A stretch of DNA of 64,000 bases from an uncultured Bacteroidota bacterium (GTDB lineage Bacteria; Bacteroidota; Bacteroidia; Chitinophagales; Chitinophagaceae). Position numbers and translations under genes: made by a program. The stretch is taken from positions 1 to 64,000 of the forward strand of contig CAIRYK010000071.1 in the NCBI GenBank assembly GCA_903882805.1. The letters run 5' to 3'. The notes beneath the pieces are model-generated. The model was not told the origin of the DNA and made no database searches. It was given only the letters and a program-made list of their open reading frames with translations. Positions 26,914 through 33,547 of the stretch are shown here, piece by piece (position 1 is the first letter of the stretch; every line of letters begins with the position of its first letter).

Positions 26914-28047
26914 ATGCAAGATCTGAGCGTTTTTTTTGAACAGGAGCATTTTATAGAAACCAAGGCGCCAAACGCCTACCAACCACTACAATGGGGCGCA
27001 AACATAGTATGCGCTACGCAAAAGTCGTTTCACTGGGGCGATGCCGACGTGGTGATTGTGGGCTGTGGCGACCGCAGAGGTCAAGACAGAAATGCGCCCT
27101 ACAGTCACAGCGCCAATGCTGTGCGTGAGGAACTATATAAAATGTATTACTGGCACAGCGACATAAAAATTGCCGACCTGGGCAATTTACTACCGGGGGC
27201 AACAATGGGCGATACCCGTGCATCGCTGGTTACTGTACTTACAGAAATATATAATGCGGGCAAAATAGCGTTGATACTGGGCGGTAGCCACGACCTGACG
27301 CTGCAACAGTATGAAGTTTTTAAAAAGGCTGAAAAGATGGCCGTAGCATCGGTTGCCGATATGCTGATAGATCTGGACGAGGCCGAAGAAATAAACGCCG
27401 GCAGCTACCTGATGGACATGCTTACGGAAACGCCTAATTTCATAACACACTACAGCCACATTGCGTTCCAGAGCTACTACGCTCATCCGCAGATGTTGGA
27501 AACGCTGGATAAACTACGTTTCGATTTTTACAGACTAGGTAAGGTAAAGGAAAACATAGACGATATAGAACCAGTATTGAGAAGCAGCGATATGTTTAGC
27601 TTCGACCTATCGGCAGTACGTTATTGCGACGCACCTGCAAACATAGCCGGCTCACCCAACGGACTAACCGGAGAAGAAGCATGCCAACTGACGCGCTATG
27701 CCGGTATGAGCCAGCAACTCACTTCGTTTGGTATATACGGTTTTAACGAAGAACACGACAGCCATGGCATGACCGCTCGCTTGCTGTCGCAGATGATCTG
27801 GTATTTTATAGATGGCTACCTGTTATGCAAAACAGAGTCGCGCCTAACGGAACGCGATGAATTCATGGTTTTTCACGTAAAATTTACAGATAACGATACT
27901 GAATTTCTGAAAAGTAAGCGCACTAACCGCTGGTGGATGAAACTACCTAACCAGACTTTTGTGCCCTGCTCTTACAACGACTACCTACTGGCCAGCGGCG
28001 ATGAACTACCAGAGCGCTGGCTGCGCGAGCAAGAAAGGCTGATGTAA
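26914..28047 (+). CDS. Arginase/formimidoylglutamase-fold protein with divergent metal site
   Basis: VVIVGCGDRRGQDRN, IALILGGSHDLTLQQYEVF, but DMLID in place of DxHxD and DLS in place of DxD. Confidence 0.75.
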   Translation: MQDLSVFFEQEHFIETKAPNAYQPLQWGANIVCATQKSFHWGDADVVIVGCGDRRGQDRNAPYSHSANAVREELYKMYYWHSDIKIADLGNLLPGATMGDTRASLVTVLTEIYNAGKIALILGGSHDLTLQQYEVFKKAEKMAVASVADMLIDLDEAEEINAGSYLMDMLTETPNFITHYSHIAFQSYYAHPQMLETLDKLRFDFYRLGKVKENIDDIEPVLRSSDMFSFDLSAVRYCDAPANIAGSPNGLTGEEACQLTRYAGMSQQLTSFGIYGFNEEHDSHGMTARLLSQMIWYFIDGYLLCKTESRLTERDEFMVFHVKFTDNDTEFLKSKRTNRWWMKLPNQTFVPCSYNDYLLASGDELPERWLREQERLM

Positions 28048-28198
28048 TACCATTTGGACATTAAAAATCGCCATGCTGGGATTGTTGCGACCCTCCGGGC
28101 GCAGCTAATAAATAATACATAACGCAACTACAAACCTGTAGCGCCTAACGGCGCAATGACATGCGCTGGCGGCGAATTTTAATCGATTTGGCATAATA
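28045..28198. repeat. Intergenic dispersed repeat, copy 1 (partner at 33248-33400)
   Basis: taatacc.tttggacattaaaaatcgccatg.(g)gggattgttgcgaccct.cggg(g)cgcag...ctacaaacctgtagcgcctaacggcgcaatgacat...ggcg.cgaattttaatcgatttgg shared with copy 2. Confidence 0.93.
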
Positions 28199-28212
28199 CT
28201 GCCTGAATATAA

Positions 28213-28252
28213 AAAAAACCTGCGAACCCCAAGAGGATTGCGCAGGTTTTTT
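28213..28252. terminator. Bidirectional hairpin terminator
   Basis: aaaaaacctgcg / cgcaggtttttt 12-bp stem between convergent genes. Confidence 0.85.
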
Positions 28253-28274
28253 ATTAGGGAAATAATACAATATT

Positions 28275-29063
28275 TTAAAATCCGTCGCCATCTATCAAGT
28301 TGCCGAGGCCGCCAAGCACACTGCCTTCTTCCTTGCGTTTTGATCCGCTATAGGCAAGTATTCTGCTGGCCAGTCGGCTGATAGGCAGGGTTTGTATCCA
28401 CACAGATCCCGGTCCGCGAAGCGTGGCAAAGAATACGCCCTCGCCGCCAAACAGTGTATTTTTAATACCGCCTACAAACTGAATATCGTATTGCACTGTA
28501 CTCATAAACGCTACTATACAACCGGTATCTATTTTGAGTAACTGCCCCGGAGCTAACTCACGGCGCAACACATGGCCGCCTGCATGTACAAAAGCCATAC
28601 CGTCGCCTTCCAGCTTTTCCATTATAAAACCCTCGCCGCCAAACAAACCGGTACCCAGTCTTTTCTGAAACTCAATACCAATTGCAACACCTTTGGCAGC
28701 GCACAAAAACGCATCTTTTTGGCAGATAACCTTACCGCCAAGACGTGCAAGATTCATAGGAATGATCTTACCGGGATAGGGCGATGCAAACGAAACTCTT
28801 TTCTTACCCATACCCACATTGGTGTACGAGGTCATAAACAGGCTCTCGCCCACCAGCAAGCGCTTACCCGCGCTAAACAACTTACTCATCAGTCCGCCCT
28901 GCTGCTGACTGCCATCGCCAAAAATGGTTTCCATTTGTATACCATCTTCCATCATCATAAAGGCGCCCGCCTCTGCCATTACGGTTTCGTTGGGGTCCAG
29001 TTCCACTTCCACATACTGCATTTCCTCCCCATATATCTGGTAGTCTATTTCATGGTTTTGCAT
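28275..29063 (-). CDS. AIM24 / TIGR00266 family protein
   Basis: VELDPNETVMAEAGAFMMMEDGI..., GEGFIMEKLEGDGMAFVHAGG, LRGPGSVWIQTLPISRLASRI. Confidence 0.88.
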   Translation of the reverse strand: MQNHEIDYQIYGEEMQYVEVELDPNETVMAEAGAFMMMEDGIQMETIFGDGSQQQGGLMSKLFSAGKRLLVGESLFMTSYTNVGMGKKRVSFASPYPGKIIPMNLARLGGKVICQKDAFLCAAKGVAIGIEFQKRLGTGLFGGEGFIMEKLEGDGMAFVHAGGHVLRRELAPGQLLKIDTGCIVAFMSTVQYDIQFVGGIKNTLFGGEGVFFATLRGPGSVWIQTLPISRLASRILAYSGSKRKEEGSVLGGLGNLIDGDGF

Positions 29064-29282
29064 AACTCTTGTGTTTTTTTGCGGCTAAAATTAAGGGATT
29101 TAGGCATTACTAAAAATGCCCATGTGCATAGATTTTATGTTAAATATAGAATCTGTCGCAAACTAATTTTGGAATTCACAGGCAATCTGGCCTCCCGGCG
29201 CAAATAGACCCACAAAATACAGCCTCGAAAAGAGCAATTTCTACTGAAATACGCTATTTTTAATGTTTAAAATTCGGATGTT

Positions 29283-31712
29283 ATGAATTCAAAAAGTACT
29301 TTTTCAGCTATTCACACTGGTTGTCATTTTCTTAACTGGTCAAAGCAGCTTTTACTGATAGTTGTGCTATTGATAACCAATCAGTTAGCGGGTTATGCTA
29401 CTGCCTGGACAACTTCGGTTGCCGGACCTGTAAACAGTTTATCAAACTGGACAGATGGCGCCACCTCTCCAACCACGTTTACCACACCCGGCGATACCTG
29501 GGCGGTAACCATGAGCATGACTCTTCCTGCATCGGTAGTTTGGACAATTGGCACACCGTCTACGTCGCCGGCTACCCTATATTTCGAGAGTGGCGGAACA
29601 ATAACTATGAGCGGGGCGGGCAGTACCTTTACCATGAATGTATATGGCGACATGGTGTTCAATGGGGGTACGCTATCGCTGGGCGGCGCAGGCACCACCT
29701 GCAACGTTACTACCAACGGGAATGTTATAATGAATACGGGTACAATAAGCTCGGTTGCAAGCAGTACTCACCTTTATATGAATACCTATGGCAATTTTAC
29801 TATAAATGGCGGCACGGTTACCACAACTGGCGCGAGCAGTTGGCTGATATTGAATACGCACGGAAACTTTGCAATGACCGGAGGCTCCTGCAATGCCGGT
29901 GGTGCAAGTGGAATTATTACCAACAACATCTTTGGCAATTGCAGCCTTTCCGGTCCGGCGACTATGGTGAACACGGGAGCAGGCTGCACAAACAATGTTC
30001 ATCTGGCATTACACAGAAGCGCCGGAACTATGCTGGTAAACAACACGACAACGGGATCATGGTCAGGCACAAACATATTTGTTGACAGTAATTGCATAGC
30101 CCGATTGAATGGCGATTTCAGCACTACTACTGGTTCGTCAGCTTATGGCCTAACCGTAAATGGCGTATTAGAGTGCCCTGCGTCATACTTTGTAAACGGT
30201 ACGCGTAAATTTGCACTCAATGCTTCTGGAAAACTGACTGTGGGTCATGCTACCGGCATAAACGGAGCGATAATAACAACTGGTACGCGAACATTCAATG
30301 ACACTGCCAACTACGAGTTCAATGGAACGGCGCCCCAGGTAACCGGCTCGTATCTTCCTGTTTCATTGGCAGCCCCCGACACAATTACTATAAATAATCC
30401 AGCGGGAGTCAGCCTCTCCGCATCAACCGCAACAACAGGTACGCTATTTTTTACAGCCGGCATATTGCACACTGGCCCCTATACAATAACACTGCCAGAT
30501 GCCCTTAGTGCAGTTGTAGGCGCGGGCCCAACAAGCTATGTACATGGTACTTTGCAAAAAACAATTGCTGGAGCTTTTGCCTTAAACTATGAGGTAGGCG
30601 ACGCCAATTATTGCCCTATGAAACTCTCGTTGAGTTCTATGGGCGTGGGCGGCATGCTGGGCGTAACCTCTACCAATGGCATGCATCCGGCTGTGGGTAC
30701 GTCGGGTATATCCACATCATTCATTGCCAACCACTACTGGACAATAACTAATATTGGGGCTTCAGGACCAACCGACATAACGCCCACTGCAACTTACAAT
30801 GCGGTTGATATTATTGGCGGAACCAACGTGGATTTCGTGACACAAAAATACTCAGGGCCTTCCTGGCTCACCTCTTCGTTGGTGAGTAGAAATACATCTA
30901 CGCCCTATACCTCGGCGCCCGTAACAAGTATTGCGACAGCCTCCATAGCCGGCGACTATATTTTCGGAAATACCGACTGCGGCACAGCGCCCATTACCGG
31001 CATAACCACAGTATGCGTAGGTAGTACCACCACACTAAGCGATGCCACGCCCGGCGGAGTATGGGTTAGCGCTTCAACTGGCATAGCCACAATTACAAGC
31101 GGCGGTGTTGTATCGGGCGTTGCTCCCGGCTCAAGCGTTATCTCTTATACTGCCTTGGGCTGCACCGTTACTACGGTGGTAACTGTCAATCCGCTACCTA
31201 ATGCCGGGTCTATAACCGGACCAAGCACTGTATGCGAAGGACGCACTTATTCCTTTACCGATCCGGCTACCGGCGGAACATGGACAAGTAGCAACACTGC
31301 AATTGCCACTGTAGGTATAGCTGGCGATGTTACAGGGGTAGCTGCAGGAACCGCTGTGATATCTTATGCTGTAACCAACAGTTGTGGTACGGCTACGGCG
31401 GTGCGTACAGTCACAGTTATAACCGCCATTGCTTGCGCTCTGCAAAGCGCGCAACCCATTACCCAAAACAATACTGGAACAATATCACTGTATCCCAATC
31501 CTGGTTTCGGTATTTTTACTGTATCCGTTTCAGCATCCGAAGCCAAAATATTCAATATGACAATTACCAATATTTTGGGTCAGAAAGTCAAAGAATTCCA
31601 ATTGGTCGCCAATCAACCAATTGAATTGAATACTGGATTAACCCCAGGAATCTACCATTTATCAACAACCGATGGGACGCAACGAATTCAAACCACGTTT
31701 GTAGTAAGATAG
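29283..31712 (+). CDS. Secreted T9SS-sorted protein with beta-helix-like 24-aa repeats and Big_2-like repeats
   Basis: Signal-like N-terminus; ITGITTVCVGSTTTLSDATPGGVW / ITGPSTVCEGRTYSFTDPATGGTW repeats; C-terminal SLYPNPGFGIFTVSVSASEAKIFNMTITNILGQKV...GIYHLSTTDGTQRIQTTFVVR sorting domain. Confidence 0.87.
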   Translation: MNSKSTFSAIHTGCHFLNWSKQLLLIVVLLITNQLAGYATAWTTSVAGPVNSLSNWTDGATSPTTFTTPGDTWAVTMSMTLPASVVWTIGTPSTSPATLYFESGGTITMSGAGSTFTMNVYGDMVFNGGTLSLGGAGTTCNVTTNGNVIMNTGTISSVASSTHLYMNTYGNFTINGGTVTTTGASSWLILNTHGNFAMTGGSCNAGGASGIITNNIFGNCSLSGPATMVNTGAGCTNNVHLALHRSAGTMLVNNTTTGSWSGTNIFVDSNCIARLNGDFSTTTGSSAYGLTVNGVLECPASYFVNGTRKFALNASGKLTVGHATGINGAIITTGTRTFNDTANYEFNGTAPQVTGSYLPVSLAAPDTITINNPAGVSLSASTATTGTLFFTAGILHTGPYTITLPDALSAVVGAGPTSYVHGTLQKTIAGAFALNYEVGDANYCPMKLSLSSMGVGGMLGVTSTNGMHPAVGTSGISTSFIANHYWTITNIGASGPTDITPTATYNAVDIIGGTNVDFVTQKYSGPSWLTSSLVSRNTSTPYTSAPVTSIATASIAGDYIFGNTDCGTAPITGITTVCVGSTTTLSDATPGGVWVSASTGIATITSGGVVSGVAPGSSVISYTALGCTVTTVVTVNPLPNAGSITGPSTVCEGRTYSFTDPATGGTWTSSNTAIATVGIAGDVTGVAAGTAVISYAVTNSCGTATAVRTVTVITAIACALQSAQPITQNNTGTISLYPNPGFGIFTVSVSASEAKIFNMTITNILGQKVKEFQLVANQPIELNTGLTPGIYHLSTTDGTQRIQTTFVVR
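29634..29993 (+). repeat. Five tandem 24-aa (72-bp) degenerate repeats
   Basis: MNVYGDMVFNGGTLSLGGAGTTCN / VTTNGNVIMNTGTISSVASSTHLY / MNTYGNFTINGGTVTTTGASSWLI / LNTHGNFAMTGGSCNAGGASGIIT / NNIFGNCSLSGPATMVNTGAGCTN. Confidence 0.85.
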
Positions 31713-31735
31713 ATTTCACGAAATACATTTATCAC

Positions 31736-31764
31736 AACGCCGCCAGCAAGTAGCTGGCGGCGTT
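31736..31764 (+). terminator. Hairpin downstream of T9SS protein gene
   Basis: aacgccgccagc / gctggcggcgtt perfect 12-bp stem, 5-nt loop; weak T tract. Confidence 0.65.
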
Positions 31765-31850
31765 CGTTTACGGCTGTTTGTCATAAAAACGCCACTTTAG
31801 CGCCGGATGATTTCTGTCAGCGACCGAAATTTGAAAGCCATATACTTTGC

Positions 31851-33230
31851 ATGAAATTTCAGTTTATGTCGTTTTATAATCTTGCTGTAAAATACAATGT
31901 ACCGGTACCCCGCTACACCAGCTACCCTACTGTGCCCAACTGGAAAGAAAATCTGGATGTTGACAATTATAAAAGTGTTTTCCGCAAGAGGTTCAGTATC
32001 GAGAACAAGACAAATGGTATAAGCCTGTATATACACCTGCCCTTTTGCGAATCGCTTTGCACCTATTGCGGATGCAACAAAAAGATTACCGCCAACCACG
32101 GCGTAGAGGAAGAATATATAAATGCCATAATTAAAGAATGGACCCTCTACCTAAGCCTTATGGATGCAAAGCCAGTAATAAAGGAATTACACCTTGGCGG
32201 TGGTACGCCTACTTTTTTCTCGCCGCAAAATCTGGAACGTTTGCTGAATGCCTTATTTAGTGAGGCCATCATTCATCCCGATCGCGAATTTAGCTTTGAG
32301 GGCCACCCAAACAATACCGGCAAAGAACACCTGCAAACGCTGTATAATCTTGGGTTTCGGAGGTTGAGCCTCGGGGTGCAGGACAACGACCCGGAGGTGC
32401 AGCGCATCATCAATCGTATACAGCCTATAGAAAATGTTCGCCGGGTTACGGAGTGGGCGCGCGCCATTGGCTACACTTCGGTAAATTATGACCTTATTTA
32501 TGGACTGCCTCTCCAAACTGCCGAAAGCATTGCTAAAACAATTGCAGAAGTAATAACCCTGCGCCCAGACCGTATAGCCTTTTACAGCTATGCACACGTG
32601 CCATGGACCAGCAAGGGGCAGCGGCTTTTTGACGAAAACGACCTGCTACCGCCTAATGAGAAACTGAAACTATACCAAACCGGCCGTGAGTTGTTTTTGG
32701 CCAATGGCTACAACGACATAGGCATGGATCATTTTTCGCTGCCCGGCGACGATCTTTACCTTGCCTCTACAAAAGGCAGGCTGCACAGAAACTTTATGGG
32801 ATATACTACCCAAAATACAAGTATTTTGATAGGCTTGGGGGTGTCGAGTATTAGCTGCACCGGAAATAGCTTTGCCCAAAATGCAAAAACAATACACGAT
32901 TACTACAGCCACCTTCATAAAAACGAACTGCCAATAGAAAAAGGCTATTTTCTCACCGAAGAAGATATCAGGTTTGGTCAATACATTCTCGACCTCAGCT
33001 GTAGGGGAATTACAACAATACACCCCACCGACCGCGACACCTTAGCCACCTATTGCCAACCCGAACTAAAACGCCTGTGGACCGACGGCCTCGTAATATT
33101 GAGCGGGAATACCATACAAATCACGGCCACCGGACGAAATTTTATTCGTAATATCTGCGCTGCATTAGACTTGTATTTGCATAAAAACAAGCCAACAACC
33201 GAGAAACGAGTGTTCAGTTCGGCTGTATAG
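31851..33230 (+). CDS. hemN: Oxygen-independent coproporphyrinogen III oxidase (radical SAM)
   Basis: VPRYTSYPTVPNW, SLYIHLPFCESLCTYCGCNKKIT, ELHLGGGTPTFFSP. Confidence 0.94.
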   Translation: MKFQFMSFYNLAVKYNVPVPRYTSYPTVPNWKENLDVDNYKSVFRKRFSIENKTNGISLYIHLPFCESLCTYCGCNKKITANHGVEEEYINAIIKEWTLYLSLMDAKPVIKELHLGGGTPTFFSPQNLERLLNALFSEAIIHPDREFSFEGHPNNTGKEHLQTLYNLGFRRLSLGVQDNDPEVQRIINRIQPIENVRRVTEWARAIGYTSVNYDLIYGLPLQTAESIAKTIAEVITLRPDRIAFYSYAHVPWTSKGQRLFDENDLLPPNEKLKLYQTGRELFLANGYNDIGMDHFSLPGDDLYLASTKGRLHRNFMGYTTQNTSILIGLGVSSISCTGNSFAQNAKTIHDYYSHLHKNELPIEKGYFLTEEDIRFGQYILDLSCRGITTIHPTDRDTLATYCQPELKRLWTDGLVILSGNTIQITATGRNFIRNICAALDLYLHKNKPTTEKRVFSSAV

Positions 33231-33247
33231 AAAATCAGCACACCAAC

Positions 33248-33400
33248 TAATACCGTTTGGACATTAAAAATCGCCATGCGGGGATTGTTGCGACCCTACG
33301 GGGCGCAGCCTATAAATAATACATTTCTCAACTACAAACCTGTAGCGCCTAACGGCGCAATGACATCCTTTGGCGCCGAATTTTAATCGATTTGGTATTA
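33248..33400. repeat. Intergenic dispersed repeat, copy 2
   Basis: See copy 1; ends taatacc...ggtatta form imperfect terminal inverted repeats. Confidence 0.93.
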
Positions 33401-33416
33401 CCCCATAGAAAATACT

Positions 33417-33547
33417 CCCGACTATGGACTATCTACTAAGGACTATGGACTAAAAAACCGACTACGGACTATCTACTAAAGAACATCTACTAAAAAAACC
33501 AACTCTCGACCATGGACTATCTACTAAAGACTATCTACTAAAAAACT
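33417..33547. repeat. Degenerate short tandem repeat (gactatggactatctactaaa-like units)
   Basis: Repeated ggactatctactaa(a), gactatggacta, gaacatctactaaaaaaacc units reaching the antiporter stop codon. Confidence 0.85.

Follow-up and report, generated by a model that had tools for sequence, protein, structure and literature searches.

What are the two nearly identical noncoding sequences at 28045-28196 and 33248-33400 of a 64,000-nucleotide stretch from an uncultured bacterium of the Chitinophagaceae (contig CAIRYK010000071.1, positions 1 to 64,000; hereafter the window)? An earlier examination of the letters alone (the sequence-only reading) had described them as a two-copy element built from consecutive hairpins, belonging to either a mobile family resembling miniature inverted-repeat transposable elements (MITEs) and repetitive extragenic palindromes (REPs) or a structured-RNA family. 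Our analysis indicates that each copy is very probably a MITE, a non-autonomous transposon, and that it belongs to the IS630 family within the IS630/Tc1/mariner group.

A dispersed family with a 3-bp target-site duplication

The window copies are ~91% identical to each other and neither holds an open reading frame (ORF), in agreement with the sequence-only reading, whose coordinates stand for copy 2 (33248-33400); the right boundary of copy 1 had to be corrected from 28198 to 28196. The description as a two-copy element is true inside the window only. BLAST against the own genome gave 40 scored matches over nearly the whole element length and end-motif searches added more, for a total of ~47 dispersed intergenic copies, 45 of which can be aligned end to end (143-156 bp, most of them 145-149 bp). 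As the copies were gathered by search, this number may miss a few diverged or chimeric members. Individual copies are 77 to 97% identical to the family consensus, copy 2 being the closest member (97%). The possibility that only two copies exist, which the sequence-only reading had named as evidence against its proposal, therefore does not hold, and we find a mobile family instead. No full-length copy was detected among 200 genomes of the Chitinophagaceae, so the window subfamily was amplified in its own lineage, and plasmid and phage collections contained no match to the element.

Nearly all copies read TWA-TACC...GGTA-TWA (W, A or T). The ends had been described as roughly inverted, taatacc.../...ggtatta, which is correct for TACC...GGTA but not for the outer TAA/TTA, which is a target-site duplication. 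With these outer bases excluded, the transposon proper, TACC...GGTA, measures 146 bp in copy 1 (28048..28193, + strand, reading TACC...GGCA; supported by BLAST in the own genome and by a 44-copy alignment) and 147 bp in copy 2 (33251..33397, + strand, TACC...GGTA; the same evidence and consensus identity). The imperfect terminal inverted repeats (TIRs) are TACCgtttgGACATTAAAAATCGCC / TACCaaatcGA(CAT)TTAAAATTCGGCGCC. The left TIR of copy 1 (TACCATTTGGACATTAAAAATCGCC, 28048..28072, +) carries an end motif that matches IS630-type insertion sequences (ISs) and MITEs of other genera, and that of copy 2 (TACCGTTTGGACATTAAAAATCGCC, 33251..33275, +) was placed by end-motif searches, while both right TIRs (28167..28193 and 33372..33397, - strand) were placed by alignment with other copies. 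Comparison of the duplication pairs gave TAA to the right of copy 1 (28194..28196, +), matching the TAA on its left (28045..28047, +), and TAA to the left (33248..33250, +) with TTA, one mismatch, to the right of copy 2 (33398..33400, +). The family thus shows what defines a MITE: a length below 500 bp, no coding capacity, imperfect TIRs (TACC...GACATTAAAA), a target-site duplication and multiple dispersed copies.

If the duplication were the canonical TA and TWA merely a target preference, then a palindromic preference would predict inverted symmetry, with TAA on the left and TTA on the right. The middle base agrees in direct orientation instead: it is equal at both sides in 26/31 own copies with TWA on both flanks (p = 2e-4), in 29/32 related MITEs from other genera (by our own count of their end pairs) and in 23/29 full-length ISs that share these ends, the three sets pooled giving p ~6e-12. 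In the own copies the agreement of the flanks ends after 3 bp. Additionally, one copy (L003) is inserted in another repeat, and two unoccupied paralogues of its insertion site align unbroken across a single TTA. Because the agreement stops at 3 bp and the unoccupied paralogues have one TTA, the duplication is TWA and the TA belongs to the element, and we rejected a TA-only duplication. The outer TWA is a 3-bp target-site duplication outside the inverted repeat; the sequence-only reading had advised looking for target-site duplications. The flanks agree in 19/22 copies of the half nearer the consensus but in 9/22 of the more divergent half, as expected if duplications decay with age.

A TWA target explains how copy 1 could insert on the TAA stop codon of the upstream gene, where it had correctly been seen to begin, with the protein unchanged. 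Its left duplication doubles as the stop of the gene at 26914-28047, which encodes an arginase-family protein; ten same-genus orthologues, all without the element downstream, also have 377 residues and end at the same residue. A TAA stop is usable as a target because the duplication restores the stop codon, and the left duplication is a gene's stop in 3/45 copies (L009, L024, which is window copy 1, and L034).

A probable IS630-type parent

The end motif TWATACCNNWTNGACATTAAAA is present in 38/399 genomes of the family, and a control with the reversed pattern had almost no hits. Many of the hits pair up in inverted orientation at distances of 90-260 bp and are therefore MITEs of other genera; at one such locus (L206, G374 contig C165) two neighbouring 176-bp copies with matching ends lie ~480 bp apart. 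Among the matches listed for the same-genus genome G378 are eight ends identical to the motif and a ninth that is nearly so. At least six of the exact ends lead into one and the same sequence, which breaks off ~140 bp on at a contig end and codes for the C-terminal part of a transposase-like protein; a collapsed multicopy IS would look like this. A candidate for the parent type is found at L227, where the same ends lie 1.12 kb apart and enclose a DDE_3 transposase in two reading frames (E = 1.4e-23), which also matches the NCBIfam model transpos_IS630 (E = 3.3e-35). L229, L237 and L284 likewise encode an IS630-type transposase between TACC...GGTA ends, and a scan of the genome collection with L227 returned IS630-type ISs of 1.12-1.18 kb with such ends in Terrimonas, Flavobacterium, Aquimarina, Niabella, Algibacter and others. 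The DDE_3 genes of G099, G271, G374, G180 and G080 do not have these ends and belong to other IS630s.

Two other parents were considered and rejected. The TNA duplication had pointed to an IS5-type element, but the genome has no PF01609 (DDE_Tnp_1) and the ISs found are IS630-type; the TWA duplication is also seen with PIF/Harbinger, but the same-ended ISs encode DDE_3/IS630 transposases and not PIF-type ones.

IS630/Tc1/mariner elements are the textbook TA-target transposons. According to published work, they transpose specifically into TA and duplicate it (PMC2170065). In place of this canonical 2-bp duplication, both the MITEs and the same-ended ISs carry the 3-bp TWA, and by this duplication the elements are a variant subgroup of the IS630-derived MITEs, not canonical members.

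The hairpin interior and the placement of the copies

The three successive stem-loops noted earlier in each copy are recovered by folding: hairpin 1 (GTTGCGACCC..GGGCGCAGC), hairpin 2 (CTACA-AACC-TGTAG) and hairpin 3 (GCGCC-TAAC-GGCGC), the last two having one G in common. On the + strand they occupy 28084..28105 (GTTGCGACCCTCCGGGCGCAGC), 28128..28141 (CTACAAACCTGTAG) and 28141..28154 (GCGCCTAACGGCGC) in copy 1, and 33287..33309 (GTTGCGACCCTACGGGGCGCAGC), 33332..33345 (CTACAAACCTGTAG) and 33345..33358 (GCGCCTAACGGCGC) in copy 2. A palindrome homologous to hairpin 1 of copy 1 occurs in L125, L078, L090, L187 and L192, hairpin 2 was also located by pattern search, and in hairpin 3 both stem sides are changed between genera. 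An integron attC site, suggested by the motif GCCTAAC, was set aside because the copies form no arrays and are flanked by a target-site duplication.

Hairpins of this kind could mean that the copies are a structured-RNA family (cis-regulatory or small RNA) kept for its function. Consistent with this, folding z-scores against shuffled sequences are -3.2 and -3.0 on the + strand and only ~-1 on the - strand, and the copies are concentrated at gene 3′ ends. However, the element has no match in Rfam, which returned two weak sub-threshold hits, both on a separate terminator-like hairpin near 28210-28275, and the covariation check proposed by the sequence-only reading gave no signal above controls: among 44 own-genome copies the score was reached by 46/500 shuffles, with 5 both-sided cells in all, and RNAalifold kept 6 pairs, none of them covarying. 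Among 16 module copies from several genera, 10 cells are changed on both sides, and a single pair of hairpin 3 accounts for 7 of these; such a pattern is expected when palindrome families are swapped. These changes, lying mainly between genera, support palindromes as units that differ between families and not an RNA function selected within this genome. As the copies are also scattered over unrelated genes and decaying, we consider a functional RNA family extremely improbable.

Between genera the interior of the element differs widely, with the shell remaining constant. The cargo is usually hairpin-rich and includes CTCCTCC/GGAGGAG palindromes and TTCGACAGG-type and CCCGCGAAGGCGGG-type hairpins. 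Two further genera have the window's two-hairpin cargo within the shell (L152, L153, L200; L187, L192), and at L078 and L090 of G169 it stands without detectable ends. In the own genome, which has five Y1_Tnp genes, an inverted pair of the two-hairpin module lies just downstream of one of them on contig C63, an arrangement that characterizes a REP flanking its Y1 transposase gene. The C63 protein has a clear Y1_Tnp domain (E = 1.5e-24) with DYLH where the family has DHxH, and may be dead. The other two full Y1_Tnp genes, L123 (C64) and L124 (C37), each stand amid their own, different palindromes (GCCCTGAAAGGGC and GATGCTGTAGGCATC), as expected of pairs of REPs and REP-associated tyrosine transposases (RAYTs) in Bacteroidota. 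The module pattern has 59 matches in the genome, most inside MITE copies, short of the more than 100 independent copies by which a REP is recognized. The occurrence of the module without the transposon ends and beside a Y1 gene suggests that the interior is a REP-type (RAYT-associated) module, which may have been captured by an IS630 shell.

The same observations raise the question of whether the whole element is a REP, as part of a bacterial interspersed mosaic element (BIME) or a REPIN, moved by a Y1 (HUH) RAYT with the TACC ends incidental. In such a model the internal palindromes, the inverted module pair adjoining a Y1_Tnp gene and the further Y1_Tnp genes would all find a place. A Y1 transposase would, however, not be expected to leave a target-site duplication or to need inverted-repeat ends, and the copies have a 3-bp duplication and ends that match IS630-type ISs and are common across genera where the interior varies. 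Y1-driven movement of the whole element is largely refuted by the duplication and the shared ends, which makes it very unlikely, and may apply to the inner module alone. Of the suggested MITE/REP-like character, the MITE part is thus tied to IS630 by ends, duplication, parent type and relatives, and the REP-like part is plausible for the inner hairpins only.

Further repeats were seen beside this family. Four copies of a related motif, CTACAAACCTTTGACTCCTAACGGAGT, lie within 1.6 kb on own contig C65 (48893-50491), with several more on C87 and one each on C20, C34 and C54; they may form a REP subfamily of their own. At L041:1494-1960 (own contig C16), L099-L105 and L094 there is a second multi-hairpin repeat family, longer than the first, which has ends TACCAATTAGAGTTCATTTTTCGGCAT and TWA duplications and carries hairpins CCCGGGATACTCCCGGGG, GCCCATTCGGGC and AACCCAGAATGGGTT; L041 is a chimera of this family and the window MITE family. 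Directly after copy 2, a degenerate minisatellite with units GGACTATCTACTAA / GACTATGGACTA spans 33414-33546.

None of 39 copies lies between divergent genes, 19 lie between convergent and 20 between tandem genes, compared with 26% divergent and 18% convergent among the intergenic bases of the window (p ~8e-6 and ~1e-5, respectively, with genes taken as longest ORFs and one 64-kb window with simple ORF calls as background). This distribution would fit a dispersed bidirectional transcription terminator, spread incidentally by transposition, and a 3′-end role of the copies is possible. Yet selection against promoter insertions suffices to explain it, hairpin 3 is not followed by a T-run, and between copy 1 and the AIM24 gene there is a separate strong terminator-like hairpin (AAAAAAACCTGCG...CGCAGGTTTTTT, 28208-28252). 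We therefore regard the terminator explanation as unlikely.

Several points weigh against an IS630-derived MITE with a REP-type interior. The host assembly lacks a DDE_3 (PF13358) transposase or a full-length copy with these ends, for which reason the parent IS had to be inferred from other genomes; G378, which has contig ends within such an IS, likewise yielded no DDE_3 gene, and a gene's absence from a draft assembly is therefore weak evidence. The proposed search for empty sites yielded the two unoccupied paralogues of the L003 site with their single TTA, but no orthologous base-exact one, the same-genus loci being too diverged. The proposed search for a cognate REP-type transposase found a Y1 gene with an adjoining module pair, but the link between module and RAYT is through this one gene on C63, with its DYLH motif. 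Finally, the biochemically studied IS630-family members duplicate TA, not TWA (PMC2170065).

For the IS630-derived MITE, the history may have been as follows. An IS that has since been lost, or is missing from the assembly, would have provided an IS630-type DDE transposase in trans; this enzyme would have cut the element at its ends and joined it to a TWA (TNA) target, giving the 3-bp direct duplication. Promoter insertions would have been purged by selection, leaving survivors at the 3′ ends of genes. The two-palindrome module may have been captured between IS630 ends when a Y1/RAYT transposase inserted the palindromes, or when ends arose around a repeat already in place; today it is perhaps a mild 3′-end RNA or DNA structure. 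Tentatively, and with less than even confidence, Bacteroidota might have a TNA-targeting IS630 branch with a pair of ends that acts as a general carrier of REP-like palindromes, coupling DDE and HUH/REP systems in a composite at 3′ ends.

Relation to known systems

The family is real and formerly mobile, a MITE derived from IS630 whose duplication is the non-canonical TWA and whose cargo is REP-like. A branch of IS630 that duplicates the 3-bp TWA would extend what the family is known to do, and the exchange of palindrome cargo in one shell offers a concrete route for the spread of REP-like repeats between genera; many intergenic repeats left unannotated in this Bacteroidota family may be explained by it. 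In the open-access literature, ISfinder being outside the search, we found no paper joining IS630, Bacteroidetes and MITE, which is not proof of novelty. A review of prokaryotic MITEs makes no mention of IS630 (PMC10969869). RUP is the known IS630-type MITE (PMC3049150).

RUP, the repeat unit of pneumococcus and an IS630-Spn1-type MITE, is comparable in its ~100-150 bp, IS630-like TIRs, target-site duplication, ~100 dispersed copies and predicted secondary structure (PMC3049150). It differs in phylum and end sequence, and the window family has a 3-bp TWA duplication, a GC-richer palindromic module and no parent IS in the host assembly. With the IS630 and Tc1/mariner elements themselves (ISY100, PMC2170065) the link is the DDE_3/transpos_IS630 transposase encoded in the ~1.12-1.18 kb ISs with the same ends; in contrast to these, the window element is gene-less, and its duplication is a 3-bp TWA (TNA) and not the canonical 2-bp TA. 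REP/RAYT systems (TnpA-REP; PMC2817692, PMC6006769) share the short palindromes, the 3′ intergenic location and the copy pair by a Y1 gene, but the window element as a whole is bounded by ends of the DDE type and by a target-site duplication, and the nearby Y1 protein looks degenerate; Bacteroidetes TnpA subclasses have been described with no or atypical REP structures (PMC6006769). QMITE2 of Coxiella (PMC5896051; reviewed in PMC10969869) is likewise a MITE found mostly in the 3′ untranslated regions of ORFs, with REP-like truncated copies. Its sequence is unrelated, and in the window family the REP-like part is the interior module, also found without MITE ends. Finally, MITECca01 of Cardinium (PMC9769881) is another IS-derived MITE in Bacteroidota, but is derived from IS982 and is ~240 bp long.

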